From IMG/VR virus record IMGVR_UViG_3300028920_000156, positions 1 to 37,671 of that record: a stretch of 37,671 bases of DNA; one strand, given 5' to 3'. This document shows positions 7,959-26,975 of this stretch, piece by piece; the first letter of the stretch is position 1; every line of letters begins with the position of its first letter. This DNA is from a virus. Under the pieces are notes generated by a model. That model was not told where the DNA came from. It saw nothing but the letters and a program-made list of their open reading frames with translations, and ran no database searches. The position numbers and the translations under genes were made by a program.

Positions 7959-7959
7959 A

Positions 7960-9801: not shown

Positions 9802-9816
9802 AAATAAGGGAATAAA

Positions 9817-10275: not shown

Positions 10276-10285
10276 TTTAACAGGC

Positions 10286-11363: not shown

Positions 11364-11378
11364 TTATATTTTAAATAT

Positions 11379-11994: not shown

Positions 11995-11999
11995 TTTAC

Positions 12000-12027: not shown

Positions 12028-12033
12028 TAGTTT

Positions 12034-12346: not shown

Positions 12347-12357
12347 GGAGATTTAGA

Positions 12358-12678
12358 ATGTCTAAGAGATACTATGCAGTATATTATAAGGAAGAAGGAA
12401 GTATTTGGTCTGAATGGAAACTTGTAGAAAAATTTCTAAAAGAGAATAAAGGGCAAAAACTTCATAAAGGATTTTTCACAATCAGCGAGGCAAAATATTG
12501 GCTTTCTGAATTAGGGGAAAATGAACCTGTTGTAATGTGTGCGGTTCCTGAAAGAAGGGCGGACACATCAATTAACAGAAAGGCTAGAAAAGCTATAATG
12601 GAAATTTTCAGGTCTTACCCATCAGAAAACAAAAAATCCGCTTTAAATAAAATTTTAAATTTTATGAGAGAGCTATGA
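12358..12678 (+). CDS. Hypothetical protein (106 aa), RNase H1 hybrid-binding-like start
   Basis: ATG 12358 follows GGAGATTTAGA. Residues 4-52 read RYYAVYYKEEGSIWSEW, then KGFFTISEAKYWL. Spacing of YYAV, G.....W and K.F.t..EA resembles the RNase HI N-terminal hybrid-binding domain, but the match is loose and no catalytic RNase H domain follows. The C-terminal half is basic and helical. Could bind nucleic acid. Coupled to the next gene by overlap. Confidence 0.5.
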   Translation: MSKRYYAVYYKEEGSIWSEWKLVEKFLKENKGQKLHKGFFTISEAKYWLSELGENEPVVMCAVPERRADTSINRKARKAIMEIFRSYPSENKKSALNKILNFMREL

Positions 12679-13022
12679 GGCTGTTTGTTTACGGGACGTT
12701 AAAAAGAGGTTTCTCAAATCATAATATTCTTAAAAATTCTCTTTTCATAGAGGAAGACAGCATAAATGGTTTTCAGATGCATGACATGGGGAATTTCCCA
12801 GGAATTACCAAAAAAAGGAATTCTGTGGTTTATGGGGAAGTTTATGAAATTGATGAGATTACTCTTATGGATTGCGATTGTCTTGAGGGTTATCCTTTAT
12901 TTTATGATAGGAAAAAGGTCAAAACGAGAAAGGGTAACACGGCAACGGTCTATTTTTTAAAGAAATGCGATTTTCCTGTAATAAACTATGGTTTATGGCT
13001 TGACAAGAAGGTATATCATTGA
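12675..13022 (+). CDS. Gamma-glutamylcyclotransferase-like (AIG2/GGCT) protein
   Basis: 115 residues, starting MRLFVYGTLKRGFSNH: the YGTL loop (6-9) is the substrate-binding signature of the GGCT fold. FPGI, VYGEVYEID and the acidic turn DCLEGYP (about 68-74, with the glutamate expected to act as general acid/base) follow in the right order. Family enzymes release 5-oxoproline from gamma-glutamyl amines or peptides. Why a phage keeps one near packaging genes is unclear; other phages have them as accessory genes. ATG overlaps the previous stop. Confidence 0.85.
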   Translation: MRLFVYGTLKRGFSNHNILKNSLFIEEDSINGFQMHDMGNFPGITKKRNSVVYGEVYEIDEITLMDCDCLEGYPLFYDRKKVKTRKGNTATVYFLKKCDFPVINYGLWLDKKVYH

Positions 13023-13178: not shown

Positions 13179-13317
13179 CGTCAGATTAAACCACAAAGTA
13201 ATAGAAGACCTAAAAAATTTTCTCTCAAAAGAATTATTGCCTCACGAGTCTGAGGCCATATTCGTTCAAAAAGCGATTGTCGAAAGAATAACAAGACTGC
13301 GTAATGGCAGGGTTTAA
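13159..13317 (+). CDS. Ribbon-helix-helix-like DNA-binding protein (52 aa)
   Basis: GTG 13159 start. KKKQFNVRLNHKVIEDLKNF gives a strand (FNVRL) and first helix; SEAIFVQKAIVERITRLRNG gives the second helix. This strand-helix-helix order, size and polarity match Arc/MetJ-type dimeric regulators. It ends inside the start of the large terminase gene. It might autoregulate the packaging genes; assignment is by pattern only. Confidence 0.5.
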   Translation: MKKKQFNVRLNHKVIEDLKNFLSKELLPHESEAIFVQKAIVERITRLRNGRV

Positions 13318-16300
13318 ATTAAATATAAGCAGAGAGGCCGATTCGCTCATAAATGAGCATATTGACGTTTATCGCCGCGCAAACAAATACAGATTTAATA
13401 ATATTCCCCAATATGCTGAAATTTTAAACGATTTCTACGGCAAGCTTGTAAAAAAAAGGATTGAAAAGCTTAGAAGAATAAAAGAAAACAGGACGAATAT
13501 AATACCAGTCATGTCTCATCTTTCTAACAGGGAGAACTTGGTTGACTTGATGATTCACTGGGGATGGACGTTTGACCCTAGATTACAGCCAATAGGGGTT
13601 ACGTCCACTATTCCGTGGATTCCATGGCCTTCGCAGGTAGAATTTATTCAATGGTTTTATGAATTATACCTTAAAAATGAAGGCGGATTAATAGAGAAAA
13701 CCCGCGACCAGGGGGCCACATGGTTATGCTGCATGATAGCTATACAGGAATGGAGATGGGAAGAGGGGTTTATTGGCGGCTTCGGGTCTAATAAATTTGA
13801 GTCTGTAGACAAGAGGGACAATCCCAGGTGTATATTTGAGAAACTGCGGGGAATTCTAAGAACTCTTCCGAACTGGTGGTTTCCCAAAGAATGGGATTTC
13901 AGGAAGCATGACAAAATAGCAAACCTTGTAAATCCTGAGAATAGGGCCAATATATCTGGTGAATCCGGTAAAGAGATTGGGCGGGGAGGCCGGTATTCCT
14001 TCTATGTAGTAGATGAAAAAGCTTCGCTGGAATTTCCTAAAATGGCCGATGCCGCCCTTTCTCTTGCCACACCCTCTCAGTTTGATCTATCAACTCCTCG
14101 TGGAATGAATGATTTCGGACAAAAGCGTCAATCGGGAAAACATAAAGTGTACACATTTCATTGGCGGGATGACCCCAGAAAGGATGAGGAATGGTATGAA
14201 CACGAAAAAGGGCGTCTTGACCCAGTTATTGTGGCTCAAGAAATTGATATTGATTATCACGCGTCTATTGAAGGACTGTTTATTGAGCCTGAGTGGGTTG
14301 AGGCGGCTATGCGCATCAAGCTGGAGCCTCGCGGTATTCGTAGCGGTGGACTGGATGTTGCCGCTGGCGGCTCGAATAAAACGGCGCTATGCTTACGGGC
14401 TGGCCCGGTGGCGAGAGTTTTTGAATGGTCAATAGAGAATGGAAATGAGGTGGCACATAAGGCAATTGAATTATGCAACGAGCATGGGATCGAGTATCTG
14501 CATTATGACCGCATAGGAGTTGGACACGCCATATACTCCGCGTTTGAGTCTACAGAAAGAGAGATGCACTTTACAAACTATGGTTTAGAGGCTGGCGATA
14601 GGGCCAGTGACGAATTTTACCCCGAATTTAACAAATTTGGGCATGAGATATTCTTTAATGCTAGAGCCGAATGGTGGTATGTTCTTTCCCAGAAATTCAA
14701 AAAAGTGTACGAAAACAAAAAATACAACCAAAGACACCCGGACGAAGAGTTGATTTCGATTGAGCCAAATCAAGAGCTAAAGAATCAACTTTGCGCTCCA
14801 ATGAGATTTACCACTGAAGGTGGTAAGATAAAATGTGAACCTAAGACAATGATGAGAAAACGGGGGATTAAGTCTCCGGATTGTTTTGTCGCCGGGACAA
14901 AAGTCAGAACACCTAAAGGAAATGTGGCTATCGAAGATTTGAGAATTGGAGATGTGGTTTGCACTCCTGTTGGGAATAGGAAAATCATAAAAACATGGGT
15001 TACAACTACTTCTAAATTGACAGAAACCACGTTTTCTAATGGAAAAAGACTAATAGGAAAAGGAAAGCATAGGATATTTACTTGGGATTCAGGGTGGGTA
15101 AGACTAGACTCTCTTATATTGGTTAATTATATTGAAACAGATGGACTGTATAGGAGGTTGAGTTGGGCGATAAGAAGGTTATTTACAAAGGAGAGTCGTT
15201 CTTCATTCAAACATCTGGTAGATATTATCAGTCAGGAAGGAAGGATGCTCAGGAGAGACTTCTTCACAGAAGAATCTGGGTTGACAATTTTGGGGAAATT
15301 CCAGAAGACATGGTCGTTCATCATAAAAATGGTGACTGGAGGGATAATTCCTTGGAGAATTTGGAATTACTTAAAAAAGGGGTTCATTGTAGAAACCACA
15401 CCAAAAAAAGAATGCGAGACTCGGAATTTAGGGAAAAAGCAATTAAAGCTCTCAGAGAAAATTCAAAAAAAGCCGCAAAATGGCATTCATCTCAAGAAGG
15501 AAAAGAGTGGCATAGAAACCATGGAAAAACCTCTTGGGAAAAAAGAGAAAGATATACACTCAAATGTGCTCAGTGTGGCAAAGATTTTGAAACTTTTTTT
15601 CCAAAAAGGACTAAATTTTGCTCAAATAAATGCTGGCAAAAAAATACGTACCATAAAAGGTGTAAGATTTCAAAGACTTGCGTACTTTGTGGGAAGACTT
15701 TTAAACACAATAAATACAGGAATCAGAAATGTTGTTCCAGAAAATGTGCGGCAATTTACCGTTTCAAAAACAAAAGTTTATAACCTAACACTTGATAAAG
15801 ATAACATCTATTACGCTAATGGAATTCTAGTGGAGAATTGTGCCGATGCGATGGTCATGGCGTTCCTGAAACGGGATGCGGGGAACAAGCATGTGGTAGA
15901 TGATTACTCCGATGTCAGCTCCATTTGTACTGAATTAGACCTGAGCTGGAGGAATTTGCGTAGTCACAGGCTGCTTAATTACGGGGCCGTATGCCTATCA
16001 AAGGACTTGCAAATAGAATGTCTGTGCTCCGTATGGGATGAATACGATGGGGTTTTATATGTCCATACTGAAAAAACATTCCCTATTCCAGATGCAAGAG
16101 GAATTGCCGAGTTTCTCAATTCAACCATGAGGCTGCAAGAGGTGGAGTGCGAGAGGCTTATGGGTAACACGGAGATGTTCTTTGAGGATAAAAAAACCGT
16201 AATGAAGAACATAAATGACGAATTATGGCTAAAAACGTCAAGATTTCAGTCGGTTAAATTAAGAGTTCCAAGAAAATATGATATGATGGGTAGTATAGCT

Positions 16301-16606
16301 ATATTAAATGAAATGGTTCAAAACAAGCGGATAAGGATAAATGTGACTTGTAAAGAATTAAATCGTCAATTAACAGGCTGGAGGGTTTCTAAAGGCAAGG
16401 TAGTGGCCGGCGGAATGAAGGAGGCTCTTCTTATGACTGTTTGTGACTTAGTAAAAGTGATACCTTTGAAGGAAATTAGGAAGCGCATTGAATATCCACG
16501 AGTAATACCAGCACTGTCAAAACCAACCAGAGCGATTAAAGAGGTTGGTCGCCCATATAATGGGCTTGACGAGCTGGCTAAATTAAAGGAGAAACAAGAT
16601 GAGTAA
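13304..16606 (+). CDS. terL: Terminase large subunit, interrupted by an intein
   Basis: 1100-residue precursor. ATPase part: adenine-binding-type PWPSQVEFIQW (107-117), deviant Walker A EKTRDQGATW (131-140), Walker B YVVDEKA (234-240) with catalytic E238. Nuclease part: first acidic residue in SGGLDVAAGG (D351), then SPD-CADAMVMAF, the third nuclease motif, split by the intein between D526 and C846. After splicing the protein would be about 781 residues, longer than the usual 450-600. The extra C-terminal 200 residues look like a second RNase H-like domain (GAVCLSKDLQIECLCSVWDE ... LLMTVCDLVKV). It powers DNA translocation and cuts concatemers at the portal vertex. Confidence 0.9.
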   Translation: MAGFKLNISREADSLINEHIDVYRRANKYRFNNIPQYAEILNDFYGKLVKKRIEKLRRIKENRTNIIPVMSHLSNRENLVDLMIHWGWTFDPRLQPIGVTSTIPWIPWPSQVEFIQWFYELYLKNEGGLIEKTRDQGATWLCCMIAIQEWRWEEGFIGGFGSNKFESVDKRDNPRCIFEKLRGILRTLPNWWFPKEWDFRKHDKIANLVNPENRANISGESGKEIGRGGRYSFYVVDEKASLEFPKMADAALSLATPSQFDLSTPRGMNDFGQKRQSGKHKVYTFHWRDDPRKDEEWYEHEKGRLDPVIVAQEIDIDYHASIEGLFIEPEWVEAAMRIKLEPRGIRSGGLDVAAGGSNKTALCLRAGPVARVFEWSIENGNEVAHKAIELCNEHGIEYLHYDRIGVGHAIYSAFESTEREMHFTNYGLEAGDRASDEFYPEFNKFGHEIFFNARAEWWYVLSQKFKKVYENKKYNQRHPDEELISIEPNQELKNQLCAPMRFTTEGGKIKCEPKTMMRKRGIKSPDCFVAGTKVRTPKGNVAIEDLRIGDVVCTPVGNRKIIKTWVTTTSKLTETTFSNGKRLIGKGKHRIFTWDSGWVRLDSLILVNYIETDGLYRRLSWAIRRLFTKESRSSFKHLVDIISQEGRMLRRDFFTEESGLTILGKFQKTWSFIIKMVTGGIIPWRIWNYLKKGFIVETTPKKECETRNLGKKQLKLSEKIQKKPQNGIHLKKEKSGIETMEKPLGKKEKDIHSNVLSVAKILKLFFQKGLNFAQINAGKKIRTIKGVRFQRLAYFVGRLLNTINTGIRNVVPENVRQFTVSKTKVYNLTLDKDNIYYANGILVENCADAMVMAFLKRDAGNKHVVDDYSDVSSICTELDLSWRNLRSHRLLNYGAVCLSKDLQIECLCSVWDEYDGVLYVHTEKTFPIPDARGIAEFLNSTMRLQEVECERLMGNTEMFFEDKKTVMKNINDELWLKTSRFQSVKLRVPRKYDMMGSIAILNEMVQNKRIRINVTCKELNRQLTGWRVSKGKVVAGGMKEALLMTVCDLVKVIPLKEIRKRIEYPRVIPALSKPTRAIKEVGRPYNGLDELAKLKEKQDE
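14882..15838 (+). other. Intein in the TerL nuclease motif (319 aa)
   Basis: Residues 527-845 of the precursor. Block A starts CFVAGTKVRTPKG (Cys1 nucleophile) and IEDLRIGDVV; block B is GKGKHRIFTWDSGW with the conserved histidine; block F is VYNLTLDKDNIYYANG; block G is ILVEN followed by Cys+1. The penultimate residue is Glu instead of the usual His. Splicing parts occupy about 85 residues at the N-side and 32 at the C-side. The 200 residues between them are Lys-rich and low in recognisable motifs (IQKKPQNGIHLKKEKSG) because that DNA encodes an HNH endonuclease in another frame. Insertion at an active-site motif is typical for inteins. Confidence 0.9.
15163..15783 (+). CDS. HNH homing endonuclease nested out of frame inside the intein
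   Basis: TTG 15163 has GGAGG (15153-15157) five bases upstream and is the first possible start after TAG 15151. 206 residues: LLHRRIWVDNFGEIPED then MVVHHKNGDWRDNSLENLEL (50-69), the HNH core with H53/H54, N62 and N66; a central GKEWHRNHGKTSW signature common in phage HNH proteins; then two zinc ribbons, CAQCGKDF...FCSNKC and CVLCGKTF...CCSRKC. Its stop at 15781-15783 falls inside intein block F. It fills precisely the gap between the two splicing halves. Presumed role: cut intein-free terL alleles and so spread the intein. Confidence 0.9.
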   Translation: MGDKKVIYKGESFFIQTSGRYYQSGRKDAQERLLHRRIWVDNFGEIPEDMVVHHKNGDWRDNSLENLELLKKGVHCRNHTKKRMRDSEFREKAIKALRENSKKAAKWHSSQEGKEWHRNHGKTSWEKRERYTLKCAQCGKDFETFFPKRTKFCSNKCWQKNTYHKRCKISKTCVLCGKTFKHNKYRNQKCCSRKCAAIYRFKNKSL

Positions 16607-16820
16607 AATAGTAGAGGTTAAACAAGAGAAAAAATGGGAAGAGGATAGTTATGCCAGAACCCTTGCCGAGGCCAGAGCGATAAAAAATGACCCGGTTAAG
16701 TTGAAGATGGCTAAAGCGGGAGCCAAGAGAATCTTGGAGGAAGAAATGGACAGGATAAGTGGTCTTAAATCCATCGCTTCCATGAAAGAGAAAGCAATAA
16801 AAAAGATAAAGAAAAAATGA
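16599..16820 (+). CDS. Small charged helical protein (73 aa)
   Basis: ATG 16599 overlaps the end of terL, and its stop overlaps the next start. Lysine/glutamate-rich (VEVKQEKKWEEDSYARTLAE, MKEKAIKKIKKK), with all-helical prediction by eye. No family recognised. It links packaging and glycan genes in one coupled chain. Confidence 0.65.
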   Translation: MSKIVEVKQEKKWEEDSYARTLAEARAIKNDPVKLKMAKAGAKRILEEEMDRISGLKSIASMKEKAIKKIKKK

Positions 16821-17440
16821 GCGCAAATCAATTAGCACTTGATAATCAAAACAAAAGACAGTTATCGCAGTTTTTTTGCGATTTGCACAGTGTTTTCAAT
16901 TTTCCTTATGGCGAGCATCGCGTCAAGTGGTTTATATCATTTGGCGCGCTACTCTATTTCATAAGGGATAAGAACCTTGGTATTCCATTTCAACAGGATT
17001 ATGACATCTCTATAATTGGACGAATAGACACTCATATGTTTAGAAAGCATTTGATTCAGTCGGGGTTTGAGATAATAAGTGAGTTTGCAAATGATGTCAC
17101 GAATGAGCCGTTTCAAATAGTGGCAAAGCACAGATTTGGACAGATAATTGACGTTTATTTCTGGGTTGATTCCTGCGGATATTTATGGCATACATACCGC
17201 CAAGGAGAGGGGTACAAGTTTAAAGGAACGCCAAAATATGCTTTTGAGGGAGAAATAGTCAAATATAAGTGGAATGAGAATTCCATAGAGCTGAATTTTC
17301 CGGCCAAATACGGCACTCTTCTGGATTTATGGTATCCAGGATGGTATATACCAGATGTACAGTTTGGTCAGTCAAGCGCAGAGGCTATAAGAGAAACTGC
17401 TAGTTGCGCTAATTTATCAGAGGTGCTTCATGGGACTTGA
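16817..17440 (+). CDS. LicD/fukutin-like transferase 1
   Basis: 207 residues. FISFGALLYFIRDKNLGIPF (about 40-59) followed by QQDYDISII is the nucleotidyltransferase motif of the LicD/fukutin group (G.LL...R....I..D.DiDi, metal-binding aspartates D62 and D64). Later VYFWVDSCGYLWH, FPAKYGTLLDLWYPGW and YIPD match the family's C-terminal PxxxxxxLxxxYG-W arrangement. Family members move phosphocholine, phosphoethanolamine or sugar phosphate from a CDP donor onto glycans. A CTP-type cytidylyltransferase gene at 26269 could make such a donor. The end LSEVLHGT overlaps the next ribosome binding site. Confidence 0.75.
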   Translation: MSANQLALDNQNKRQLSQFFCDLHSVFNFPYGEHRVKWFISFGALLYFIRDKNLGIPFQQDYDISIIGRIDTHMFRKHLIQSGFEIISEFANDVTNEPFQIVAKHRFGQIIDVYFWVDSCGYLWHTYRQGEGYKFKGTPKYAFEGEIVKYKWNENSIELNFPAKYGTLLDLWYPGWYIPDVQFGQSSAEAIRETASCANLSEVLHGT

Positions 17441-17735
17441 ATCAGGAACAAAAATAGTATGTGATAGGTGTAAAAAAGTAATAAGGGATGTGAAAAATCC
17501 CATAAAAATACATCATATAACCTGCATGGATTGCGTCTTAGAGCAAAAGGTGTCGGAAAATCTTCCATTAGAGCTTAAAACTGACATGAAATTTGAGTAT
17601 GTCATAAAGGATGGAGCACCGTTATTGGTGATTAAAATAAGAATAGAGAAGATGGGGGTTATAGACCTCGGTGTTTCAAGGAGCCAATTAGAGACTTGGG
17701 TTGGTGAAATGAAGGAAATTGAGGCTAAAAAGTGA
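17430..17735 (+). CDS. Small zinc-knuckle protein (101 aa)
   Basis: ATG 17430 overlaps the LicD-like gene and has AGAGGT 8-13 bases upstream. CDRCKKVIRD (11-20) and CMDC (about 34-37) form one zinc site; the rest is a beta-rich domain (KFEYVIKDGAPLLVIKIRIE) with a C-terminal helix. No enzyme motif. Possibly a scaffold or regulator for the adjacent glycan enzymes. Confidence 0.6.
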   Translation: MGLESGTKIVCDRCKKVIRDVKNPIKIHHITCMDCVLEQKVSENLPLELKTDMKFEYVIKDGAPLLVIKIRIEKMGVIDLGVSRSQLETWVGEMKEIEAKK

Positions 17736-18556
17736 TTTCAAAAGAGAGGGTGCTGGAAGTAAATCGTATTAGCTGGCGCAAACAGCATACGACCGCAGTA
17801 TTTGACTCAACCATGGTTCACATGGGATGGAAGGTCATGATTTATATTCCTAGGGCCAGGTATTTAAAAAAGCGATTTAACTACAAAAGACTTGTTGTGG
17901 TATGCAATAAAAGAGACAAATACTTATGGAATGACGTGGCTGATGAATTTGAATTTAATGAAAGAAGAAGTCGGTGGCCATATATAGGCCCTGAACCATT
18001 GCTTCCTGATTATGTGAAGAAGAAATACGGTTGTTTTTCTCTTCAGCACCCACCAAGATATAAGGGATTGGCATACGGAAACAATTTTACCCATATAGAA
18101 TACGGGGAAGAGAAAGGCGAGCGATATGATTTAGCCATTAACGCGTCAAGGAATTTTCAGCTGGGCGCGAAAGATTATGGGCTTTTGCTTGATTTTTTGG
18201 GTTATAAAAAAGTATGTTTTGTAGGTGATGGTTATTATGTCCCCGGGGCAGATGATTTTAGGAATTGCAGCATGGATAAAGTGTGTAATGCTTTGAGGAT
18301 GTCAAAATTTTATTTCGGCCCGATGTCTCCAACCGCTCACCTTCCCGCTCTAACAGGCACTAGCAGAATACTATGGGGAAGAGGGATGGAATGTGACCCG
18401 TTTACAAATAACAGAACGCTTCGGTATGTCTATGGGAAAAAATGGAATCCTTTTAAAGTTAAGACCGAATTTATGCTAAGTGCCCGCAAATTTAAAGTAA
18501 AAGACATGGCGAGGTTTATTTTAACTTGTTTTGGCGAAAGATTTAAGTACGTATGA
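17732..18556 (+). CDS. Glycosyltransferase, GT9/heptosyltransferase-like (274 aa)
   Basis: GTG start overlapping the previous stop. The C-terminal half contains VCFVGDGYYVPG, then MSKFYFGPMSPTAHLPALTG (about 192-211), which has the layout of the GT-B nucleotide-sugar site of ADP-heptose transferases (FIGPdSG..H.A.alG). The N-terminal half has YKRLVVVCNKRDKY and YDLAINASRN. A weak assignment to GT9 rests on that C-terminal motif. It would add a sugar in the same pathway as the neighbouring GT2-type genes. Confidence 0.55.
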   Translation: MISKERVLEVNRISWRKQHTTAVFDSTMVHMGWKVMIYIPRARYLKKRFNYKRLVVVCNKRDKYLWNDVADEFEFNERRSRWPYIGPEPLLPDYVKKKYGCFSLQHPPRYKGLAYGNNFTHIEYGEEKGERYDLAINASRNFQLGAKDYGLLLDFLGYKKVCFVGDGYYVPGADDFRNCSMDKVCNALRMSKFYFGPMSPTAHLPALTGTSRILWGRGMECDPFTNNRTLRYVYGKKWNPFKVKTEFMLSARKFKVKDMARFILTCFGERFKYV

Positions 18557-19191
18557 ATGTTGATATACTTATTCCAACCTGTAAACAAGAGGTAAATTCT
18601 TTAATAAAGGAACTTTTGATTACCAATGGTAATTATAGGATAATAAGCACATGTCTTATGATTAGTGCCGCACAAAATAGGAACGCCGCTTTAAGTTCGG
18701 CAAAATCAGATATTGTTATTATGATGGACGATGATATGACCGGGTTTTATCCAGAATGGTTAAATGAGATGATTGAGGTTATAACGGGAAATCAGGACAT
18801 AATTTTATTGTCAGCCAGATTATTACATCCGAAAGGATTTGGTCATATGGGAATTAAAAAACAAAAGCAAGGTCGTCCTTATGTGGCTCAAAATAATAGA
18901 GTTTCTACAGCATGTTTTGCTTTAAGAAGAGATATTATTATGAAAAATAATATAAAATTTGATGAAAATTTCGTTGGAAGCGGATACGAGGACACTGATT
19001 TTATGATGCAAATATCTCAAAAACTAGGAAAAGAAAGGGTTTGGATAAATGATAATGTTGAGTTGATGCATAATAACGAGATGAAAAATCAAGGCGGCCC
19101 TTTATGGGAAAAAAATCATAAATATTACAGAAGCAAATGGCCTGATGATATGGCGGTCGTAGGACAACAGGATTGGACAGCATGGAGATAA
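18553..19191 (+). CDS. GT2-family glycosyltransferase (212 aa)
   Basis: Overlaps the previous stop. VDILIPTCKQEVNSL (3-17) is the first strand and loop of the GT-A fold; AAQNRNAALSSAKSDIVIMM leads to the DDD metal/donor site (MMDDDM, about 57-62); FVGSGYEDTDF (about 140-150) is the acceptor-side ED motif typical of GT2 catalytic bases. Ends with a WxxK-rich segment. It would be soluble as no membrane helix is seen. Donor sugar unknown. Confidence 0.85.
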   Translation: MNVDILIPTCKQEVNSLIKELLITNGNYRIISTCLMISAAQNRNAALSSAKSDIVIMMDDDMTGFYPEWLNEMIEVITGNQDIILLSARLLHPKGFGHMGIKKQKQGRPYVAQNNRVSTACFALRRDIIMKNNIKFDENFVGSGYEDTDFMMQISQKLGKERVWINDNVELMHNNEMKNQGGPLWEKNHKYYRSKWPDDMAVVGQQDWTAWR

Positions 19192-19841
19192 CATTTACAT
19201 GCACAACATCCAGAAGGATTAGGCTTTTTTTTAATATGATGGAAAGCTTTTTAAACTGTTGTGAAGATAAGGATATGATTACTCGCTGGATTGTGAGTGA
19301 TGACAGAAGCTCTGAAAAAGACATTAATAATATGAAAAAAGCGTTCCCGTTTTTAGAGATAGTTAGACCTGATAAAAACGGTCAAGCGGCAAGTTTAAAT
19401 AAATTATTTAGTTGTGTAAAAACTGATTGGATATTTCATTCAGAAGACGATTGGGTTTTTTTAAGACGAGATAAAATTATCACAAAATGTTTGGAAATAC
19501 ATAAAGATGATGATAGAATAAGGAATATAATTCTTACCAATTGGAGGGGGGTTAAGGTTAATTCGGGAAATCTAGAATATATAATTCACTATCATCATCC
19601 GTCACTTATTAAAGAAGTGGCAAGAACGTGTGATGCCAGGTGGCTTGGGTACTCCTTGAACCCGGGATTACAACATTTAAAAACTATAAAGAAATATGGG
19701 GAATACAATCTAAATTTCAAACAAAATAGCAGATTTTGGGACAGGCTTTTAGCATTTAGATATTTGAAAGATGGTTATAAACGAGCAAGTTTAATTGGAA
19801 ATTATGTCATGCACACCGGGGGGAGGTGTACTTTATATTGA
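19182..19841 (+). CDS. GT2-like glycosyltransferase (219 aa)
   Basis: ATG 19182 lies within the end of the previous gene; TTG 19173 is a weaker choice. MEITFTCTTSRRIRLFFNMM and RWIVSDDRSSEKDIN form the N-terminal GT-A half; IFHSEDDWVFLRRD (about 87-100) carries the ED/DxD-type metal site; C-terminal LGYSLNPGL and FWDRLLAF follow. Similar short GT2-like proteins occur in glycan clusters. Its end TLY-stop overlaps the next TTG start. Confidence 0.75.
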   Translation: MEITFTCTTSRRIRLFFNMMESFLNCCEDKDMITRWIVSDDRSSEKDINNMKKAFPFLEIVRPDKNGQAASLNKLFSCVKTDWIFHSEDDWVFLRRDKIITKCLEIHKDDDRIRNIILTNWRGVKVNSGNLEYIIHYHHPSLIKEVARTCDARWLGYSLNPGLQHLKTIKKYGEYNLNFKQNSRFWDRLLAFRYLKDGYKRASLIGNYVMHTGGRCTLY

Positions 19842-20590
19842 AATTTTGCGCATTTTATAAGGTTTTTTCAGGCCATGAGTGGCTTGAGGCTAGTATTAGG
19901 AGCGTGTTTCAATATGTGGAAAAAGTAATAATTTCATCGTCAGAGCTAAGTTGGGGCGGAGTTGGAAACAACACCTGTATTAAAGTAGTGGAAGAACTAA
20001 TGCGGATAATTCCTAATATTGATTTAATTAAGTGTAACACAACAGACCAAAAATCTCAATGCGAAGAAGGATATAGATATATTAGGGATAAATATGGCCC
20101 GGATTATATTATGCTTGTTGATTCTGATGAAATATGGACTGACGATGCTATGGCGAAAGCTAAGAGACATATACAATTCCATCAAAATTACCCAGCATAT
20201 AGATGTAATATGTTTACATACATAAAAGATAAACATTATCGAGTAGAGCCGTATGAACCACTTCAGCCTGTTGTGTTTATAAAAAGTGATGTGGATTATT
20301 ACGGAGATGACGCCAGATGTTGCGGCATTAAGCCGTTTTATAGGATGGAGGATGTTTTTATTCACCATTTTCCATACGTAAGAAATAATTTCACCGATAT
20401 TTTAATAAAATTAATAAATTCACACATCTCTGAGAAACAGGAGCATGAGCCATTGGATTATTGGGTTTCTGAGAAGTGGTGTAAATTGCCCGATGTCAAG
20501 GATTTTCACCCGGCAATAGGATTTCAAAATAATTGGCATTCGATAAAAGTGGTTGATGATGGTGATTTGCCAGAGGTATTGCATGGATGA
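19838..20590 (+). CDS. GT2-like glycosyltransferase (250 aa)
   Basis: TTG 19838 is preferred: GGGAGGTG precedes it at a good distance and it overlaps the previous stop as TTGA; GTG 19826 sits inside the ribosome binding sequence. KFCAFYKVFSGHEWLEASIR and YVEKVIISSSE are typical of WcaA-like GT2 starts. YIMLVDSDEIWTDDAMAKA (about 91-109) carries the DSDE metal site. Late histidines (FIHHFPYVR) may contact donor phosphate. It ends LPEVLHG, as the LicD-like protein does at 17440. Confidence 0.75.
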   Translation: MKFCAFYKVFSGHEWLEASIRSVFQYVEKVIISSSELSWGGVGNNTCIKVVEELMRIIPNIDLIKCNTTDQKSQCEEGYRYIRDKYGPDYIMLVDSDEIWTDDAMAKAKRHIQFHQNYPAYRCNMFTYIKDKHYRVEPYEPLQPVVFIKSDVDYYGDDARCCGIKPFYRMEDVFIHHFPYVRNNFTDILIKLINSHISEKQEHEPLDYWVSEKWCKLPDVKDFHPAIGFQNNWHSIKVVDDGDLPEVLHG

Positions 20591-21116
20591 TTGCTTATTA
20601 TTAAAGGGTGAGCTTCGGTTATTAAAAGACTATTGTGAAAACAAAGTGGTTGTTGAACTAGGGACATATACCGGAGAGTCTGCAAAAATAATAGCTTCTG
20701 TAGCCAAAGAGATTTACACAGTTGATGTTTATGACATTCCGATTAAAAGTGATTTTGGGGAGGAGTGCAAAGTCAATTACAGCTATGAAGATAATCTCCG
20801 TAAGTTTTCTAATTATAAAAACATCCATATTATAAAAGCGGTAAGTTGGCAAGCGGCAGAAAATTTTGACAATAATAGCTTGGATGTTGTTTTTGTAGAC
20901 GCATCGCACATTCAATCTAACGTCACTAGGGACGCCATTAATTGGAAGGTTAAATTAAAAAAGGGCGGTTTAATGTTGTTCCATGATTACAACGCGTGTC
21001 ATAAGGGTGTTGTTGATGCTGTAAATAAGCTTATAGCGTGTGATAATGATTTTGAAGAAGAGCCTTTTAGGAAAGTATATAAGAATAATTCTATTAAAAT
21101 TTTAAGAAGAGTATAG
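20583..21116 (+). CDS. SAM-dependent methyltransferase (177 aa)
   Basis: ATG 20583 chosen, within the preceding gene end and behind AGAGGT. VVVELGTYTGESAK (about 22-35) is motif I of class I methyltransferases; YTVDVYD supplies the ribose-binding acid; LDVVFVDASHIQSNV and LKKGGLMLFHDYNACHKGV match the Methyltransf_24 pattern (vDg.Hsy..v..D, ..pGG.i..hDy). Related enzymes methylate sugars in O-antigen-type clusters. Here probably a glycan O-methyltransferase by context. Confidence 0.8.
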   Translation: MDDCLLLKGELRLLKDYCENKVVVELGTYTGESAKIIASVAKEIYTVDVYDIPIKSDFGEECKVNYSYEDNLRKFSNYKNIHIIKAVSWQAAENFDNNSLDVVFVDASHIQSNVTRDAINWKVKLKKGGLMLFHDYNACHKGVVDAVNKLIACDNDFEEEPFRKVYKNNSIKILRRV

Positions 21117-21126
21117 GGGGCGATGC

Positions 21127-21807
21127 GTGGAAAATTATACCAAATTATCAAATAGGCTCAAAAAAGCAAGCTACCCTGACAATCATCATTATGATGTTAA
21201 AACTTTGGAGCCAATCGGAGTTATGAAGGATAGGTGGGATATAATAGAAAAGGCTCCGGAGTTTAAAGCTGGCGGCAAATTTTTGGATGTGGGTTCCAAT
21301 AAAGGCTTTATTAGCTTAAAACTGGCTATATATTATGAGAAAATAGTTGGATATGAGCCTTTAAAGGATTTGGTGTCCCTTTCATCTGATATTGCGGCTG
21401 CTCATAAAATTAAGAACATTGAGTTTTTGGAGGGATATTATGAGGACATCCCTGATGATGAGGTGTATGATGTTGTTTATTTAGGCAATTGCCATCATTA
21501 TATATTTAGGAATTGTGTTACAAATGGGGAGAAATTTTATGAGTGGACTGAAAAGTTGAAAAAAATATGCTCTAAATATTTAATAATAGACGGAGTTCAT
21601 TCTGGAAATGATTTTGCGATGAGGGGGATGGGTAGAGACGAGGGCTGGCCTGAAGGGGTTTTAAAGGAATATAGCCTGTTTAACCTGTCAGAATCTCTTG
21701 AAAGTGATTTTATGCTAATAAAATTCATTAAGAATGGAATTGGGTATTACAATGTGAAAAACAATTCCGGGAGGCATATAGCTATTTATGAAAGAAATAC
21801 ACCCTAA
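21127..21807 (+). CDS. SAM-dependent methyltransferase (226 aa)
   Basis: GTG 21127 behind GGGGGCG. Motif I GGKFLDVGSNKGFISLKLA (about 49-67), acidic VGYEPLKDL next, then DVVYLGNCHHYIF (about 117-129) at the position of motif IV, with NCHHY perhaps contributing to substrate binding. C-terminal IIDGVHSGNDF. Different subgroup from the preceding methyltransferase. Substrate unknown; sugar or lipid-linked intermediate by context. Confidence 0.8.
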   Translation: MENYTKLSNRLKKASYPDNHHYDVKTLEPIGVMKDRWDIIEKAPEFKAGGKFLDVGSNKGFISLKLAIYYEKIVGYEPLKDLVSLSSDIAAAHKIKNIEFLEGYYEDIPDDEVYDVVYLGNCHHYIFRNCVTNGEKFYEWTEKLKKICSKYLIIDGVHSGNDFAMRGMGRDEGWPEGVLKEYSLFNLSESLESDFMLIKFIKNGIGYYNVKNNSGRHIAIYERNTP

Positions 21808-22270
21808 AGATTTGTTAAAAAATCTTCATATAGACGGAGAACTTAGGAGATGGGATTTGATTGCAGCATATGTATTTGTTAAGGATTATCTTGAAAAAGG
21901 ATTTAAAAATAAAATATATGATTACATTTCGTATAAAAAGTGGCTACATATAAATAAGACGAGAAATATTGCGAATTATTCTATCTATGACCTGGTCTGT
22001 CAAAGACAAATGTTTTTCTCTCTCATTTTAAATATAAATAAAAATGGATTTAATCCTGATAATCCGATTATTCTAACAGAAAATGGTATGATTTTTGACG
22101 GTCTTCATAGGTCAGCCGTCATGCTTTATTTTGATAGAAAAATCCCTTATGTAGTAAGAGAATGTGGTTCCGGTATTGGTTTTGATATAAATTGGTATGA
22201 AAAAAATATTCTTGATAAATATGTGAAACGAATAAAACAGGAATACAGTTTAATAATGGAGGACGTATGA
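21788..22270 (+). CDS. ParB-like DGxHR-domain protein (160 aa)
   Basis: Overlaps the preceding gene by 20 bases. NPIILTENGMIFDGLHRSAV (about 92-111) is the ParB/sulfiredoxin-type loop: strand, GxxxDGxHR, then helix, with D104, H107 and R108. Such domains bind nucleotides (CTP in ParB, ATP in sulfiredoxin) and also occur in polysaccharide clusters with unknown role. The N-terminal half is helical and unique. Not a plasmid partition protein: no helix-turn-helix follows. Confidence 0.65.
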   Translation: MKEIHPKDLLKNLHIDGELRRWDLIAAYVFVKDYLEKGFKNKIYDYISYKKWLHINKTRNIANYSIYDLVCQRQMFFSLILNINKNGFNPDNPIILTENGMIFDGLHRSAVMLYFDRKIPYVVRECGSGIGFDINWYEKNILDKYVKRIKQEYSLIMEDV

Positions 22271-23190
22271 CTTATATACCAGAAATTGAGTTGAATTTTT
22301 CCAATATTTGCGGTGCTAATTGCTTTATGTGCTCAAAACCTCATGGGTGTGGCAATATACAATTTATGCCTCAAGAAGTTTTTGACGCGCTAATAGGGCA
22401 GTTAAAGGACTGTGAAGTGGGGCAGTTTCAAACGTCAGGTAATGGTGAGTGTTTATTAAATCCTAATTATTTGAATTATTTACGAACTTTAAAAAAAGAG
22501 TTTCCCAACGTAGAAAGATGGTGTTATAACAATTTTTCGATGATGAGGTATGAAATTTCTAAGCAGATTATAGATGAGGTGCTTATAAACAAGATGCACG
22601 CCAGAGTGGAAAGCCTAGACCCCGAGGTTATGAGGAAATCATCTCGTTTAAATTTTGATTTAGTGATAGAAAATATAAAACACTTTCTTCAGTTAAATGA
22701 TAAAAACCAAGTTCCTCTAATAATTTTATACAATAATCCCGGCGATTATTATAAAAAATGTATGAAGGTATTGGGCAAGCCTCCGCAGTATTGGCCTTTT
22801 GGGGATAGGACGGATTTTCCGAATGAAGAGCAAGATATAAGAAATTTTTTCCAACGATGGTCTAATTATCCAATTAATTCGTTCAGGATAAATCATTGTT
22901 TGTGGGCGGAGCGAGAAAACTGTCAACCAGACACTAAGGAGCCGTGTCCTAAAATAAATGTAATAAAAAGGGTTATGTGGGTTAGTCCTAATGGCGATGT
23001 TCAAGGGTGTTGTTATGATGATACGCAGTCTCACTTTGTTTTGGGAAATATATTAAATACGCATATAGCCGATATTTTTAATGGGGAAGAAAGGGCTGAG
23101 TTTATTCGTAAAATAGAAAATAGGGAAATAACAGATTACCCTTGCGTGAATCCCAAATGCTGTAATTTTGATGAAGGTTTGGAAAAATGA
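22267..23190 (+). CDS. Radical SAM protein with SPASM-like end (307 aa)
   Basis: ATG 22267 with GGAGG upstream, overlapping the previous stop. CGANCFMC (15-22) is the CxxxCxxC motif that binds the catalytic 4Fe-4S cluster. QTSGNGECLLNPN (about 58-70) stands where GGEP-type SAM contacts lie. The C-terminus (CPKINVIKRVMWVSPNGDV, GCCYDDTQSHFVLGNI, CVNPKCCNF) resembles a SPASM auxiliary-cluster domain. Likely a radical enzyme modifying a sugar, peptide or lipid. Confidence 0.8.
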   Translation: MTYIPEIELNFSNICGANCFMCSKPHGCGNIQFMPQEVFDALIGQLKDCEVGQFQTSGNGECLLNPNYLNYLRTLKKEFPNVERWCYNNFSMMRYEISKQIIDEVLINKMHARVESLDPEVMRKSSRLNFDLVIENIKHFLQLNDKNQVPLIILYNNPGDYYKKCMKVLGKPPQYWPFGDRTDFPNEEQDIRNFFQRWSNYPINSFRINHCLWAERENCQPDTKEPCPKINVIKRVMWVSPNGDVQGCCYDDTQSHFVLGNILNTHIADIFNGEERAEFIRKIENREITDYPCVNPKCCNFDEGLEK

Positions 23191-23810
23191 ATTATAGCAA
23201 GATTGTTGGTGGTGGTGGTGGTGGGTATAATGTTGGAGCTGATTGTTATTGTGATGGTAAAATTGCGGTTGTTTTAATTCAAAAATGCGCTACACAATCA
23301 ATAAAAGCAGTTCTTGAAAAGGATTTTGAGCGTAAAAAATTGGAAGTATGGGACGGCGTTGAATATGCGGCTATGATAAGAAATCCTGTTGAAAGGTGGA
23401 TTTCTGGTATAGCGACTCATTTTGCTAATCGTATTAATAATGGAATTTCAACATTTGAACTGGTTGAGGAATTTTTAAATGATAAAGACGGTGTAGATTA
23501 TTTGTTTAAAACAGTTAGTTTTGAAGAGCATACGAAACCACAGCATTTATTCATAGAGCAAGTTAAAGATAGGGTTAATTTGTTTCCATTAGATTATTCT
23601 GAAAAGTTTTACGACTGGATTCGTAGTAATGGATATGATGTGTGCAACGCGCATATTCATAATACATTGCATTTTGACAAAAACTCATATCATTATAAAA
23701 TTTTTGAAAAAATAAAAAGTTTAATGACATCGGAAAATACTGACAAAATAAATAAATTTTTTAAAACCGATATGGAACTTTACTTAAAAACAAGGGGAAA
23801 ATATGGATAA
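23187..23810 (+). CDS. Sulfotransferase-family protein (207 aa)
   Basis: VVLIQKCATQSIKAVL (28-43) matches the 5'-phosphosulfate loop of PAPS-dependent sulfotransferases (K.G.TS with K33, S38), and MIRNPVERWISG (63-74) matches the 3'-phosphate motif R.P..R..S. H109-type basic residues around EEHTKPQHLF are typical of the Sulfotransfer_2 group. It should transfer sulfate to a carbohydrate hydroxyl. A run GGT x5 plus GGG (23208-23225) encodes six glycines near the N-terminus. Overlaps both neighbours. Confidence 0.75.
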   Translation: MNYSKIVGGGGGGYNVGADCYCDGKIAVVLIQKCATQSIKAVLEKDFERKKLEVWDGVEYAAMIRNPVERWISGIATHFANRINNGISTFELVEEFLNDKDGVDYLFKTVSFEEHTKPQHLFIEQVKDRVNLFPLDYSEKFYDWIRSNGYDVCNAHIHNTLHFDKNSYHYKIFEKIKSLMTSENTDKINKFFKTDMELYLKTRGKYG

Positions 23811-24798
23811 AACTCCAACTACCAGATTTGTTATAGAGCCATTATTAAACTGCAATATCAAATGCAAGATGTGCTATCATTTACATAAGTACGAGAACTG
23901 GAAGGATTATACAAAGACTTTAGAGCAGGTGCGTAATGAAATTGACGAGGCAAAAGACAGGGGTAATGATTATATGGATATTACAGGCGGCGAGCCTACC
24001 ATGTATAAAGACCTAATCTCTTTAATAAGATATGCCACAACAAGCGAAATAAAATCCTGTATCATAACCAATGGTATAGTAAGCGAATCGAAAGCTGCGG
24101 AAATACTGGAAGCTGGAATAAATGATTTTCTAGTGTCCAGGCATGGATTGGAAAAGACGCATAATTTTATAACTAATTACGACAAGGCTTACGAGAAGCA
24201 GGTGAGATTTCTTGACCAGATTGCAAAAAATATGAGTTTTAGGTTTAACGGCGTAATAACCAAATTTAATCAGGAGGATTTTTTAAAAATTGCAGAGGAA
24301 ATGGTTATATATCAACCAAGAGTTGTAAACATTATAAACATGAATCCACATCATGAGTGGATGGATAAAAGTATTGAAACGCAGGATGTTGTGGCTGATT
24401 TAAGAAAGGCTCAGCCAATACTTGAAGACACGATTGAATTTTTAGAATACAATCATGTTGTAGTGAATCTTCGATACTATCCAATGTGTAGAATAAAAGA
24501 GGAGTATCGGAGATGCGTTTGTAATGACCTGCAAGTGATTTTTGACCCTTATGAATGGGATTATAACATCACCCCTAAAACTTTTGAGGCTTTTAGAAAT
24601 TGGGGGATTAGTACGTCACTGGCCAACGAAGAGAAGGGCGAACCTTGTTGCAGATGTGGTTTGCAAAATGTCTGTGGGGGAATAAACAAGAGTTTTCATA
24701 AGGCGGCCAATGAATTATATGGAGAGGTTTGCGACCCCCAACCCCCGGTAAAAGAAGAAGATTTTTACATGTATAGGAAAAATCAGGGCATGAAGTAG
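23803..24798 (+). CDS. Radical SAM protein with C-terminal cysteine cluster (331 aa)
   Basis: EPLLNCNIKCKMCYHL (12-26) carries C17, C21, C24 for the 4Fe-4S cluster; MDITGGEPTMYKDL (about 59-72) is the GGEP SAM-binding motif; SRHGL and FNGVITKFN are further barrel strands. C-terminal CCRCGLQNVCGGINK is a SPASM/twitch-type extra cluster. Canonical radical SAM layout. Reaction unknown; a second radical enzyme in a sugar block suggests unusual sugar chemistry such as epimerisation or dehydration. Confidence 0.85.
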   Translation: MDKTPTTRFVIEPLLNCNIKCKMCYHLHKYENWKDYTKTLEQVRNEIDEAKDRGNDYMDITGGEPTMYKDLISLIRYATTSEIKSCIITNGIVSESKAAEILEAGINDFLVSRHGLEKTHNFITNYDKAYEKQVRFLDQIAKNMSFRFNGVITKFNQEDFLKIAEEMVIYQPRVVNIINMNPHHEWMDKSIETQDVVADLRKAQPILEDTIEFLEYNHVVVNLRYYPMCRIKEEYRRCVCNDLQVIFDPYEWDYNITPKTFEAFRNWGISTSLANEEKGEPCCRCGLQNVCGGINKSFHKAANELYGEVCDPQPPVKEEDFYMYRKNQGMK

Positions 24799-25460
24799 TT
24801 TTTTATAGATTCCATAACACTATACCATTTGGGCGTCAAATTATAAACAAGTTTTTTAAATTCTTTTTCCTCAAACAAGGTTTTTAATTTTTCTTTGTCA
24901 GGATTCCATCTAGTATGAATTCCTTTGATAAAATCACCGATATGCAAGTCTCTATATTCTTTGTCCCAATTCTCTCCATCAGGAAACGTATAGGTTTCTT
25001 CAGGGATTGGATAATCACCGTCTTTCAGAATATGATAAAGCATTACCTCATCCCATTGCCTATAATTCTGAAAGTGGTTTATCCTGAAATATCCTCTAAT
25101 CCATTTAGTTTTTTCGTAAAATTCAGGAAAGGCTCCAAATTGTCCTCCACAGATACGGGTCTTGTCTCCAGTCCACTTGCCGTGTTTTCCTTTAAACCCT
25201 CTCAGATAGCATGCTCCCTTGCAGACGTGTTCAGAGTAATACTCGAGGTGACTTTTCTCGTGGGGAAGAACAAGCGTGTCAATGTCAGTAATGTGAACGT
25301 AATCGAATTTTGGGTTGAAAAGAAATCTGCTGCATGCCGGGTGGTTAATTTTATCGACCCTGACCTCGGCTCTAGGGTAAACCCGCTTAACGCAATACTT
25401 GTAAATTGGTATTAAATCAGTATAAACGCCGTCAGCACATGCAAAAAAACATACTTTCAT
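24783..25460 (-). CDS. Glycosyltransferase, GT8-like, on the opposite strand (225 aa)
   Basis: The only minus-strand gene to the right of 1870. KVCFFACADGVYTDLIPIYK (2-21), then YVHITDIDTLVL (54-65) with the DxD metal site D59/D61; CGGQFGAFPEFYEKT and YRQWDEVMLY lead to HIGDFIKGIHTRW, the C-terminal histidine region. This order fits GT8 or related GT-A enzymes. Its 3' end overlaps the previous gene tail to tail by 16 bases. No ribosome binding site precedes ATG 25460; TATAAAT lies directly upstream. Confidence 0.75.
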   Translation of the reverse strand: MKVCFFACADGVYTDLIPIYKYCVKRVYPRAEVRVDKINHPACSRFLFNPKFDYVHITDIDTLVLPHEKSHLEYYSEHVCKGACYLRGFKGKHGKWTGDKTRICGGQFGAFPEFYEKTKWIRGYFRINHFQNYRQWDEVMLYHILKDGDYPIPEETYTFPDGENWDKEYRDLHIGDFIKGIHTRWNPDKEKLKTLFEEKEFKKLVYNLTPKWYSVMESIKNYFMP

Positions 25461-25490
25461 ATTTATAATATAAACAAAAAGGAGGGGTAC

Positions 25491-25640
25491 ATGCCCAAGG
25501 GAACACGAGTTTACAAATGCGTACAGGAAGTTAAAAAGAAAAGCCCAAAAGTGAATGCGTATGCTGTATGCCAGAAGTCTACCGGCCAGTCATACAAAAC
25601 TGGAAAACCGTTGAATAACAAAAGAAAGGGTAGGAAATAA
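25491..25640 (+). CDS. Small basic protein (49 aa)
   Basis: ATG 25491 has a strong AAGGAGGGG. Sequence MPKGTRVYKCVQEVKKKSPK, then NAYAVCQKSTGQSYKTGKP and a basic end. The pattern (KC..kv....VNpYAVCq.STGqsy.tGK) is a recurring tiny phage protein as far as I remember, function unknown. It sits just upstream of the minus-strand gene's start, pointing away from it. Confidence 0.7.
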   Translation: MPKGTRVYKCVQEVKKKSPKVNAYAVCQKSTGQSYKTGKPLNNKRKGRK

Positions 25641-26302
25641 ATAAGAAAGCTCAAATAGATCTCCTCCTGGCCGCATTAGAGTGCGCTAGGAAGGCGAAAA
25701 TTGATAAGCACGTGTTTATCGGCTTCGGAACCTGTTTGGGCGTTGTGCGCCCCACAATTGACGCTAAACGAGAGTTTAAGAGGGGTTTAATGCATCATGA
25801 TGGAGATGCAGACCTTTGTTTGTTATCCGAGAGCTTACCGGAAGAGAGAATAGAGGATTATTACAATTATTGTGTGGCTGCCGGGCTTATGAAAGAATGG
25901 TACGAGCCTTTAGACAGGATTGAGAGACGTTCTGATACAGGTGATTTATTATGGTTCAGTATTAAAAAAGGGGAGGCCAAGTGTTGTAATTGGATATTTT
26001 TCAAATGGAAAGGGTATTATTGGCACTGTAAAGGCAAATACTGGGTAAATCCCCGCAAATTCCCTAATCATTCAATTCCCGCCAACGCCGAAGCGGTGAT
26101 GAAGGGTGCTCCGGAAGACTATTTTAATGAGCTTATTGAGGTGGATTTAGAGGGTATAAAGGTTAAAATGCCTAAAAAGGCTGGTCATTTACTAGATTTT
26201 TGGTATCCCCAATGGCATGAACCAGCTATAGGCGCATCAAAACGAAAAGTAGTAGCGGTGGTTAACAAATGGGCACAGAAAGACTCTTGGAAGATACTAT
26301 AA
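25637..26302 (+). CDS. LicD-like transferase 2, start codon uncertain
   Basis: The first ordinary start is GTG 25712 (FIGFGTCLGVVRP). However, the frame is open back to TAG 25631 and encodes INKKAQIDLLLAALECARKA, a helix that normally precedes the G(T/A).LG..R motif in LicD proteins. ATA 25637 overlaps the previous stop as ATAA and could be the true, rare start. FGTCLGVVRP and HHDGDADLCL (metal-binding D) then KKAGHLLDFWYPQW mirror the LicD protein at 16817. Probably a nucleotidyl/phosphosugar transferase. Confidence 0.65.
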   Translation: MNKKAQIDLLLAALECARKAKIDKHVFIGFGTCLGVVRPTIDAKREFKRGLMHHDGDADLCLLSESLPEERIEDYYNYCVAAGLMKEWYEPLDRIERRSDTGDLLWFSIKKGEAKCCNWIFFKWKGYYWHCKGKYWVNPRKFPNHSIPANAEAVMKGAPEDYFNELIEVDLEGIKVKMPKKAGHLLDFWYPQWHEPAIGASKRKVVAVVNKWAQKDSWKIL

Positions 26303-26652
26303 TCCTGTTTTCTGGACGATTTGACCCGGTTCATGTGGGCCACATATGTTCAATGAGAAGGTTGTTAAACAGGTATAAATGGCTTGAAATAGTCATTTTA
26401 GACCATCCTAAGCGAAGATTTCCCGCATTTTATTCAAAGCAGATAATTGAAGAAGTTCTCGCCGGGTTTAGGATAAATGTGAGGATTAACACTACTCATT
26501 TTTCGGAAATTACTTTAAAAGAGTTAAAATCTTACAAATCTGATTTATATGCCGCAGGGAATATGGAGGTATTAAAGCATATCTCAAGCCTTGGATTTCC
26601 CTGTATTTGGGTAGATAGGGCGTATCATTTCCAAGCCTCGAAGATAGCATAG
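26269..26652 (+). CDS. Cytidylyltransferase-like nucleotidyltransferase (127 aa)
   Basis: FSGRFDPVHVGHICSMRRLL (14-33) contains the HxGH motif (H22, H25) of the CoaD/NadD/TagD cytidylyltransferase superfamily. ILDHPKRRF and YAAGNMEVLKH occupy later strand positions; the C-terminal ISxTxxR-type motif is replaced by FQASKIA. The length fits the minimal domain. It would activate a small phosphorylated compound as a CDP derivative, the donor type used by LicD enzymes nearby. It starts inside the preceding LicD-like gene. Confidence 0.8.
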   Translation: MGTERLLEDTIILFSGRFDPVHVGHICSMRRLLNRYKWLEIVILDHPKRRFPAFYSKQIIEEVLAGFRINVRINTTHFSEITLKELKSYKSDLYAAGNMEVLKHISSLGFPCIWVDRAYHFQASKIA

Positions 26653-26685: not shown

Positions 26686-26714
26686 TTGACAATCTTGCCA
26701 AATTGACATATTAT
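26686..26714 (+). promoter_or_regulatory. Strong sigma70-type promoter for the head operon
   Basis: TTGACA (26686-26691), exactly 17 bases, then TATTAT (26709-26714). The expected transcription start, about 26721, coincides with the ATG of the next gene. A second TTGACA lies at 26703-26708. Same -10 box as the promoter at 12000. Confidence 0.8.
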
Positions 26715-26720
26715 CATAAT

Positions 26721-26975
26721 ATGGCTGCAAATCGGTCAATATACTGCCCAAGGGAAGAAAATCATCGAGACCATAAAAAGACTTTGCTTATTGTTGGCAA
26801 AACAGACGTTTCCGTTTACTGTAGGAAAGACGGCTGGATGAAAATAGAATTCCGCAAAAATGGCAAATTAATTGATTTTTCAGACTCGGCTGTGACCGTA
26901 CATTCCATTCCCAAGGATAGGCATATAAACACGGAGCCGCTACCAACAATAGCAATCAGCGAAATTAAGGAATGA
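26721..26975 (+). CDS. Small zinc-binding-type protein (84 aa), probably leaderless mRNA
   Basis: ATG 26721 lacks a ribosome binding site and sits where transcription should begin. Product MAANRSIYCPREENHRDHKK, then TDVSVYCRKDGWMKIEF. CPREENH...VYCRKDGW resembles the zinc-finger half of small phage proteins placed upstream of portal genes (Com-like). The C-terminal part is a beta segment (VTVHSIPKDRH). Gene end is one base from the portal ATG. Confidence 0.6.
   Translation: MAANRSIYCPREENHRDHKKTLLIVGKTDVSVYCRKDGWMKIEFRKNGKLIDFSDSAVTVHSIPKDRHINTEPLPTIAISEIKE

Follow-up and report, generated by a model that had tools for sequence, protein, structure and literature searches.

Cluster O mycobacteriophages such as Corndog encode a methyltransferase and glycosyltransferases within the structural operon, and these enzymes were detected in infected cells but not in virions purified twice, in a study where capsid peptides were under-detected (PMC4351075). 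Mycobacteriophage virion glycans have also been reported, as cited in PMC12619734. PMC8008677 describes a LicD gene with an IspD gene in the replication module of Flandersviridae gut phages, the two being present in some members only. We have analysed a block of ~15 tightly overlapping genes (positions 16817–26652) that lies between the genes for the large terminase subunit (terL, 13304–16606) and the portal (26977–29094) in the IMG/VR record IMGVR_UViG_3300028920_000156 of an uncultivated virus; the window is this whole record of 37,671 bases. On sequence evidence the locus is a LicD-anchored hotspot, with LicD1 at its left edge and LicD2 with a nucleotidyltransferase at its right edge, between which the cargo is exchanged.

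The locus resembles Corndog in placing glycosyltransferases and a methyltransferase within the structural operon, and glycosyltransferase genes in such an operon with no exporter are the arrangement of mycobacteriophage-type virion glycosylation. Yet in Corndog four genes occupy the gap between portal and protease, whereas here it is the terL–portal gap that is filled, and the locus adds a LicD pair, a nucleotidyltransferase, sulfotransferase-like and radical SAM genes, and strong turnover of cargo. With the Flandersviridae it shares a phage LicD gene beside a nucleotidyltransferase gene able to supply an activated donor, but the partner there is of the IspD type and here carries a HIGH motif, and the accessible text describes no glycosyltransferase array. 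The putative transferases of the window belong with the bacterial LicD phosphotransferases, such as the cholinephosphotransferases of envelope glycans, by family, by the motif G-x3-L/G-x3-R...DxD and by a C-terminal motif, but they are only weakly similar to them in sequence. The gtr serotype-converting modules provide an analogy only, in that phage glycosyltransferases alter a surface glycan; unlike those modules, the block was not found to contain a GtrA flippase or a membrane-anchored transferase.

LicD genes, sulfotransferases and glycosyltransferases in a structural operon each have phage precedent. The initial annotation considered LicD and sulfotransferase genes unusual among phages; they are uncommon, but both have been reported, in PMC8008677 and as a PHROG sulfotransferase family. 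What appears to be new is the combination of a LicD frame that is conserved with cargo that varies, and in a limited literature search no glycan locus framed by LicD and swapping its cargo was described from the terL–portal gap.

The frame of the locus and its exchanged cargo

The block was originally taken for a single insertion between terL and portal, but its frame is also present in distant relatives such as contigs G001 and L104, and a simple insertion is rejected. In G001 the order is terL, a small gene (41% identical to its window counterpart), LicD1 (44%), p02 (32% over 31 residues), cargo, a GT8-like gene on the minus strand (48%), LicD2 (41%), the nucleotidyltransferase (44%), p16 and the portal (50%). 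Between the edges lie a glycosyltransferase, a sulfotransferase, a GT2/methyltransferase fusion, a further glycosyltransferase and two methyltransferases. L104 is a near-minimal version of ~2.3 kb in total, running terL, LicD1, an open reading frame (ORF) of 132 amino acids, LicD2, nucleotidyltransferase, p16 and portal. At the other extreme ~20 kb separate terL from portal in G002, with GT8-like and GT2 genes, a homolog of p03, several GT4 genes, methyltransferases, a radical SAM protein and an aminotransferase. This block encodes four LicD-like proteins, two of which are the LicD1–LicD2 pair adjoining the portal, and gave no match to the nucleotidyltransferase. The right edge of the locus is seen in L088, L099 and L090.

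Orthologs of p01, p13, p14, p15 and p16 thus hold the same positions even though capsid protein identity to these relatives is just 50–55%, which is more than chance would give. By contrast none of p04 to p12 has a homolog in the blocks of the relatives compared, save a weak match of p12 to a radical SAM protein of contig G007, and it is the enzyme classes that recur across the blocks despite the cargo being non-homologous. G007 shows the second setting of the right edge. There the LicD2–nucleotidyltransferase pair closes a sugar cluster far from the portal that includes a PseF-like cytidylyltransferase, a WbuX N-acetyl sugar amidotransferase (above the curated cut-off), a hexapeptide acetyltransferase and glycosyltransferases. 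L106 has a sister of this cluster, which also ends in LicD2 and the nucleotidyltransferase. The entry L108 is the same contig as G007 (IMGVR_UViG_3300033991_000123), and the PseF-like pseudaminate cytidylyltransferase and WbuX were both profiled in it.

The terL–portal gap might simply tolerate insertions and gather unrelated cargo with no joint pathway, and the lack of homology between the cargoes of relatives is what such passive collection would leave. We think this very improbable: the recognised cargo is of glycan-type classes, LicD1, LicD2, the nucleotidyltransferase and the GT8-like gene recur, and the LicD2–nucleotidyltransferase pair is intact at another genome position. The conserved frame, together with the retention of that pair at the other site, argues for a LicD-anchored hotspot rather than scattered genes, and the comparison of gene order that was proposed as the refuting test did not reveal a scatter of unrelated genes.

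The first of these relatives was found through the LicD proteins. Searches of IMG/VR with the portal and the radical SAM protein p10 as single proteins yielded no relatives, and a comparison set of 80 terL relatives (34–40% identity) was dropped as they had no further gene in common with the window. A pattern derived from both LicD proteins retrieved L086, the 76.7 kb contig G002, with a portal 28% and a capsid 41% identical to those of the window and homologous tail proteins. Alignments with G002 proteins gave L088, L089 (G001, 70.4 kb), L090, L099 and L101 (G007, 68.5 kb), and a nucleotidyltransferase alignment added L104 and L106. Portal identity in the distant relatives carrying the locus is 28–56%. 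L101 was considered as a relative free of the block and rejected when a whole-record search placed its cluster elsewhere in the genome; L102 and L103 gave a weak portal match only and no LicD2.

The genes of the frame and of the cargo

The position of the block and its chain of genes, as initially annotated, are borne out by reading frames and profiles. Nearly all neighbouring genes overlap by 4–34 nt, and most encode enzymes of glycan assembly or modification, which supports the view of a glycan-building block. By profile or ortholog there is good support for two LicD-like proteins, two GT2 glycosyltransferases, two methyltransferases, two radical SAM proteins and a HIGH-motif nucleotidyltransferase. 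All features described lie on the plus strand save p13, the sole minus-strand gene of the block.

LicD1 (p01, 16817..17440) is a LicD-like nucleotidyltransferase at the conserved left edge. It is homologous to p14, gives a weak match to an NCBIfam cholinephosphotransferase model and has orthologs in G001, L104 and G002 of 44, 39 and 26% identity, respectively. LicD2 (p14, 25637..26302) has orthologs of 38–43% identity in L088, L089, L099, L104, L106 and L108. The window p01 and p14 both fall below the cut-off of the Pfam LicD family (PF04991), which is passed by p14 orthologs in L089 (23.9 versus 22.6 bits) and L106 (32.4 bits). The cholinephosphotransferase model is matched at 4e-4 by p14 itself and at 1.6e-8 by one of its orthologs. 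Alignments and a motif search reveal the LicD nucleotidyltransferase motif GxxxGxxR...DxD and a C-terminal Y/W motif; the strict pattern is not matched by p01, where the motif fits in alignments only. The presence of two LicD-like proteins, already proposed from the reading frames, is well supported by their orthologs and mutual homology. The LicD2 frame has no ATG, GTG or TTG before position 25712, yet the sequence upstream of this point suits the N-terminal helix of the family, so that its translation may begin at a rare start codon or depend on coupling.

The nucleotidyltransferase (p15, 26269..26652) starts 34 nt inside the end of LicD2, and its orthologs (40–52% identity) lie directly behind LicD2. 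An overlap of 4–34 nt between its start and the LicD2 end is possible in the window, L088, L089, L099, L104 and L108 (in L088 and L108 more than one start codon is possible for the overlap), and L106 has the genes side by side. That the pair is kept together at two different genomic sites speaks for joint action, in which p15 may make an activated donor that LicD2 uses. The nature of this donor is less clear. The HxGH motif is present and p15 matches generic HIGH-family models, with profile scores slightly under the curated cut-offs. The best specific models and structures are those of PPAT (phosphopantetheine) and NMNAT (nicotinate-nucleotide) adenylyltransferases, and CTP-using members of the TagD/choline-phosphate type are not closer. 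PPAT and NMNAT use ATP. The earlier assignment as a cytidylyltransferase making a CDP-linked (cytidine diphosphate) donor is thus retained as regards the HIGH-motif nucleotidyltransferase and loses support as regards the nucleotide. Between p15 and the portal lies a small conserved protein (p16, 26703..26975) with homologs of 33–43% identity in the same position in five contigs.

Of the glycosyltransferases, p04 (18553..19191) is the most secure member of GT2, matching PF00535 above cut-off (5e-7) and carrying a DDD motif, and p05 (19173..19841) matches the same family just under cut-off (2e-4). For the third proposed GT2 protein, p06 (19826..20590), a match to PF13641 (E = 0.055) and a DSD motif make a GT2-like identity possible but weak. 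A GT9-like (GT-B) assignment of p03 (17732..18556) is similarly tentative. Its label was based on motifs, and its homolog in the G002 block (27% identity) matches PF01075 below threshold (0.01) with no other GT9 profile support. The GT8 label previously given to p13 (24783..25460, minus strand) was not upheld in any profile library searched, and the description of p13 as a GT-A/GT8-like protein is based on its DxD motif and on conservation in relatives, with a 48% ortholog in G001, also on the minus strand, and distant homologs in G002 and L106. Profile searches against the PDB returned nothing meaningful for p13, p03 or LicD2, and AlphaFold produced no usable fold for p13 or p03 (predicted local distance difference test scores, pLDDT, of 39 and 29, from alignments of 3 and 2 sequences).

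The modifying enzymes are better defined. Two class I methyltransferases, as first annotated, are identified by PF13578 (Methyltransf_24; 2e-16) in p07 (20583..21116; likely start ATG at 20583 after AGAGG) and PF13847 (7e-9) in p08 (21127..21807). The two radical SAM proteins are equally well founded, each with a CxxxCxxC motif: p10 (22267..23190) is of the radical SAM/SPASM type (PF13186, 3e-9; PF04055, 1e-6), and p12 (23803..24798) matches PF04055 at 3e-20. A sulfotransferase-like assignment of p11 (23187..23810) has moderate support, from phrog_3347 (galactose-3-O-sulfotransferase; 3e-4) and motifs of the PAPS (3′-phosphoadenosine 5′-phosphosulfate) type, with no Pfam match; a Pfam-supported sulfotransferase lies inside the corresponding block of L089. 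The DGxHR protein p09 (21788..22270) has the ParB/sulfiredoxin-like motif, as DGLHR, but no family match, and its assignment is weak. The small protein p02 (17430..17735), with two CxxC pairs, is zinc ribbon-like by its motifs and has its weak G001 homolog in the same position. A small basic ORF of 49 amino acids (25492..25641) between p13 and LicD2 has a strong ribosome-binding site as read from the sequence.

The nearest solved structure to p12 is the sugar-nucleoside enzyme cytosylglucuronate decarboxylase (PDB 7vob, 3e-10), and peptides are often modified by SPASM enzymes. Together with the 49-amino-acid ORF, this might suggest that the radical SAM/SPASM proteins act with the methyltransferases and sulfotransferase to produce an antimetabolite, either a modified peptide or a nucleoside, to which LicD and glycosyltransferases add sugars. 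Such a product seems very remote, given that the radical SAM cargo is gained and lost whereas LicD and glycosyltransferases persist, that no export gene was found, and that the ORF by eye resembles a common basic phage protein and not a leader–core peptide.

Where the glycan may be placed

We would give roughly an even chance to the reading of the block as a locus for glycan biosynthesis, anchored by LicD and set within a late packaging and morphogenesis operon, whose glycan is carried on virion proteins. The most likely product is a phosphate-bearing, methylated and possibly sulfated glycan, made in the cytosol and placed on those proteins. In such a pathway soluble GT2-, GT9- and GT8-like enzymes would build a short cytosolic glycan from host sugar nucleotides, and the methyltransferases, sulfotransferase and radical SAM proteins would then modify it. 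The nucleotidyltransferase p15 would activate an X-phosphate to NDP-X (nucleoside diphosphate-X), probably CDP-X, from which LicD1 and LicD2 would transfer phospho-X onto sugars. The finished glycan would be placed on structural proteins of the same operon, generating a lineage-specific virion coat altered by exchange of cargo.

Virion decoration is preferred because the block lies inside the structural operon in four contigs (the window, G001, G002 and L104), because hydropathy indicates no membrane segment in any protein of the block, because searches of five records, in which positive controls matched, found no member of the Bac_transf, GtrA or Polysacc_synt_3 families, and in the light of the Corndog and mycobacteriophage precedents. 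The absence of a transporter or polymerase noted at the outset is therefore confirmed as far as these searches go, and a priming transferase was likewise not detected for the block. Its position in the operon suggests late expression.

The main rival is remodelling of the host surface, where the substrates in the host cytosol would be lipid-linked precursors (O-antigen, capsule or teichoic) and a host flippase would export the altered glycan, leading to superinfection exclusion or lysogenic conversion. We regard this as a possibility of distinctly lower probability, though several observations favour it. Bacterial LicD enzymes work on, and decorate, envelope glycans, and the cluster of the sister phage G007 lies far from the portal with an integrase gene ~1 kb off, a setting typical of lysogenic-conversion genes; these two points also weigh against a virion glycan. 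The PseF-like and WbuX enzymes of the G007 cluster are typical for surface sugars, and the authors of PMC8008677 propose such a role for phage LicD. Further points against the preferred reading are the low pLDDT values of p03 and p13 given above, the best specific profiles of p15, which are those of ATP-using enzymes and speak against a firm CDP claim, and the metagenomic origin of the window contig and its relatives. Scanning bacterial genomes with alignments of LicD2 and the capsid protein yielded no relatives, and so linked neither a host nor a gene donor. Remodelling of the host surface is in turn disfavoured by the retention of the block within the structural operon in the four contigs, by the absence of an integrase from the G000, G001 and G002 records, and by the failure to find a membrane enzyme, GtrA, flippase or priming transferase.

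Phage DNA is the least supported of the three targets. Glycosyltransferases and modifying enzymes could decorate modified bases as a protection against restriction; phage DNA glycosylation exists as a phenomenon, and p04 shows a weak similarity (2e-4) to a PHROG whose members are phage DNA glucosyltransferases. However, no thymidylate synthase or hydroxymethylase-type gene was found in the five records, where controls matched, and the early region as read, in a record that is probably incomplete, has no base-modification gene. In a search for TET/JBP the positive control was silent. To our knowledge LicD and radical SAM/SPASM proteins are absent from known DNA-sugar pathways, and the location in the packaging operon suggests expression that is late. 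DNA hypermodification is highly unlikely.

Returning to a glycan on the virion, a bolder and more doubtful proposal is that the phage builds its own serotype-like coat. The frame of LicD1, LicD2 and nucleotidyltransferase would add a phosphodiester-linked group to a glycan carried by the virion. Between the edges, genes for sugar, methyl, sulfate and radical SAM chemistry would be swapped, so that surfaces diversify in the manner of bacterial capsule loci. If this were true, a phage structural operon would keep a hotspot like a capsule locus, in which the phosphotransferase frame is fixed and the cargo can be exchanged, and virion glycosylation would be a general and fast-evolving trait, beyond a mycobacteriophage curiosity. 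LicD1, LicD2 and the nucleotidyltransferase would be candidates for virion sugar-phosphate transfer, and their gene order a signature with which to find such phages.

Flanking genes and the remainder of the record

The window contains genes for a small terminase subunit, a terL with an intein, a P22-type portal (26977..29094; PF16510, 5e-40), a scaffold-like protein, the major capsid protein and tail proteins. A small gene (16599..16820) between terL and LicD1 has its 41% identical homolog in the same position in G001 and none in L104. In tblastn searches of 50,697 phage records there was no match to the window portal or capsid, nor to p03, p13 or p14, and p10 and p12 found distant radical SAM proteins and nothing else. 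Related contigs are longer than the window, at 68–77 kb. Positions 1–13000 comprise many small overlapping ORFs among which replication and lysis genes were not recognised, and for this reason the record probably represents only part of a larger genome. Features upstream of terL include, in the early region, a SpoU/TrmH-like (SPOUT) RNA methylase by eye (4118–4627; no PHROG match at 0.05), a protein that by eye is pentapeptide-repeat-like (8604–9197; phrog_7713, 2e-34, a PHROG of unknown function) and, shortly upstream of terL, a gamma-glutamyl cyclotransferase-like gene (12675–13022; phrog_2520, 7e-20).

The left flank, terL (13304..16606), is identified by a PHROG match, and Hint/intein Pfam matches place an intein at ~14882–15850 (Hint_2, 2e-9). 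The terL proteins of G001 and L104 are 51–54% identical to that of the window, and both lack the intein. A different frame of the intein DNA holds an HNH endonuclease ORF of 206 amino acids (15163–15783; HNH_3, 1e-13) that is ~33% identical to phage HNH proteins. An out-of-frame HNH ORF has a comparison case in the 'hidden HNH' of ShiLan (PMC11855218), and by coordinates the HNH match is likewise out of frame with the intein match in two further intein-bearing records, the terL of Tetrasphaera phage TJE1 and MT838676.

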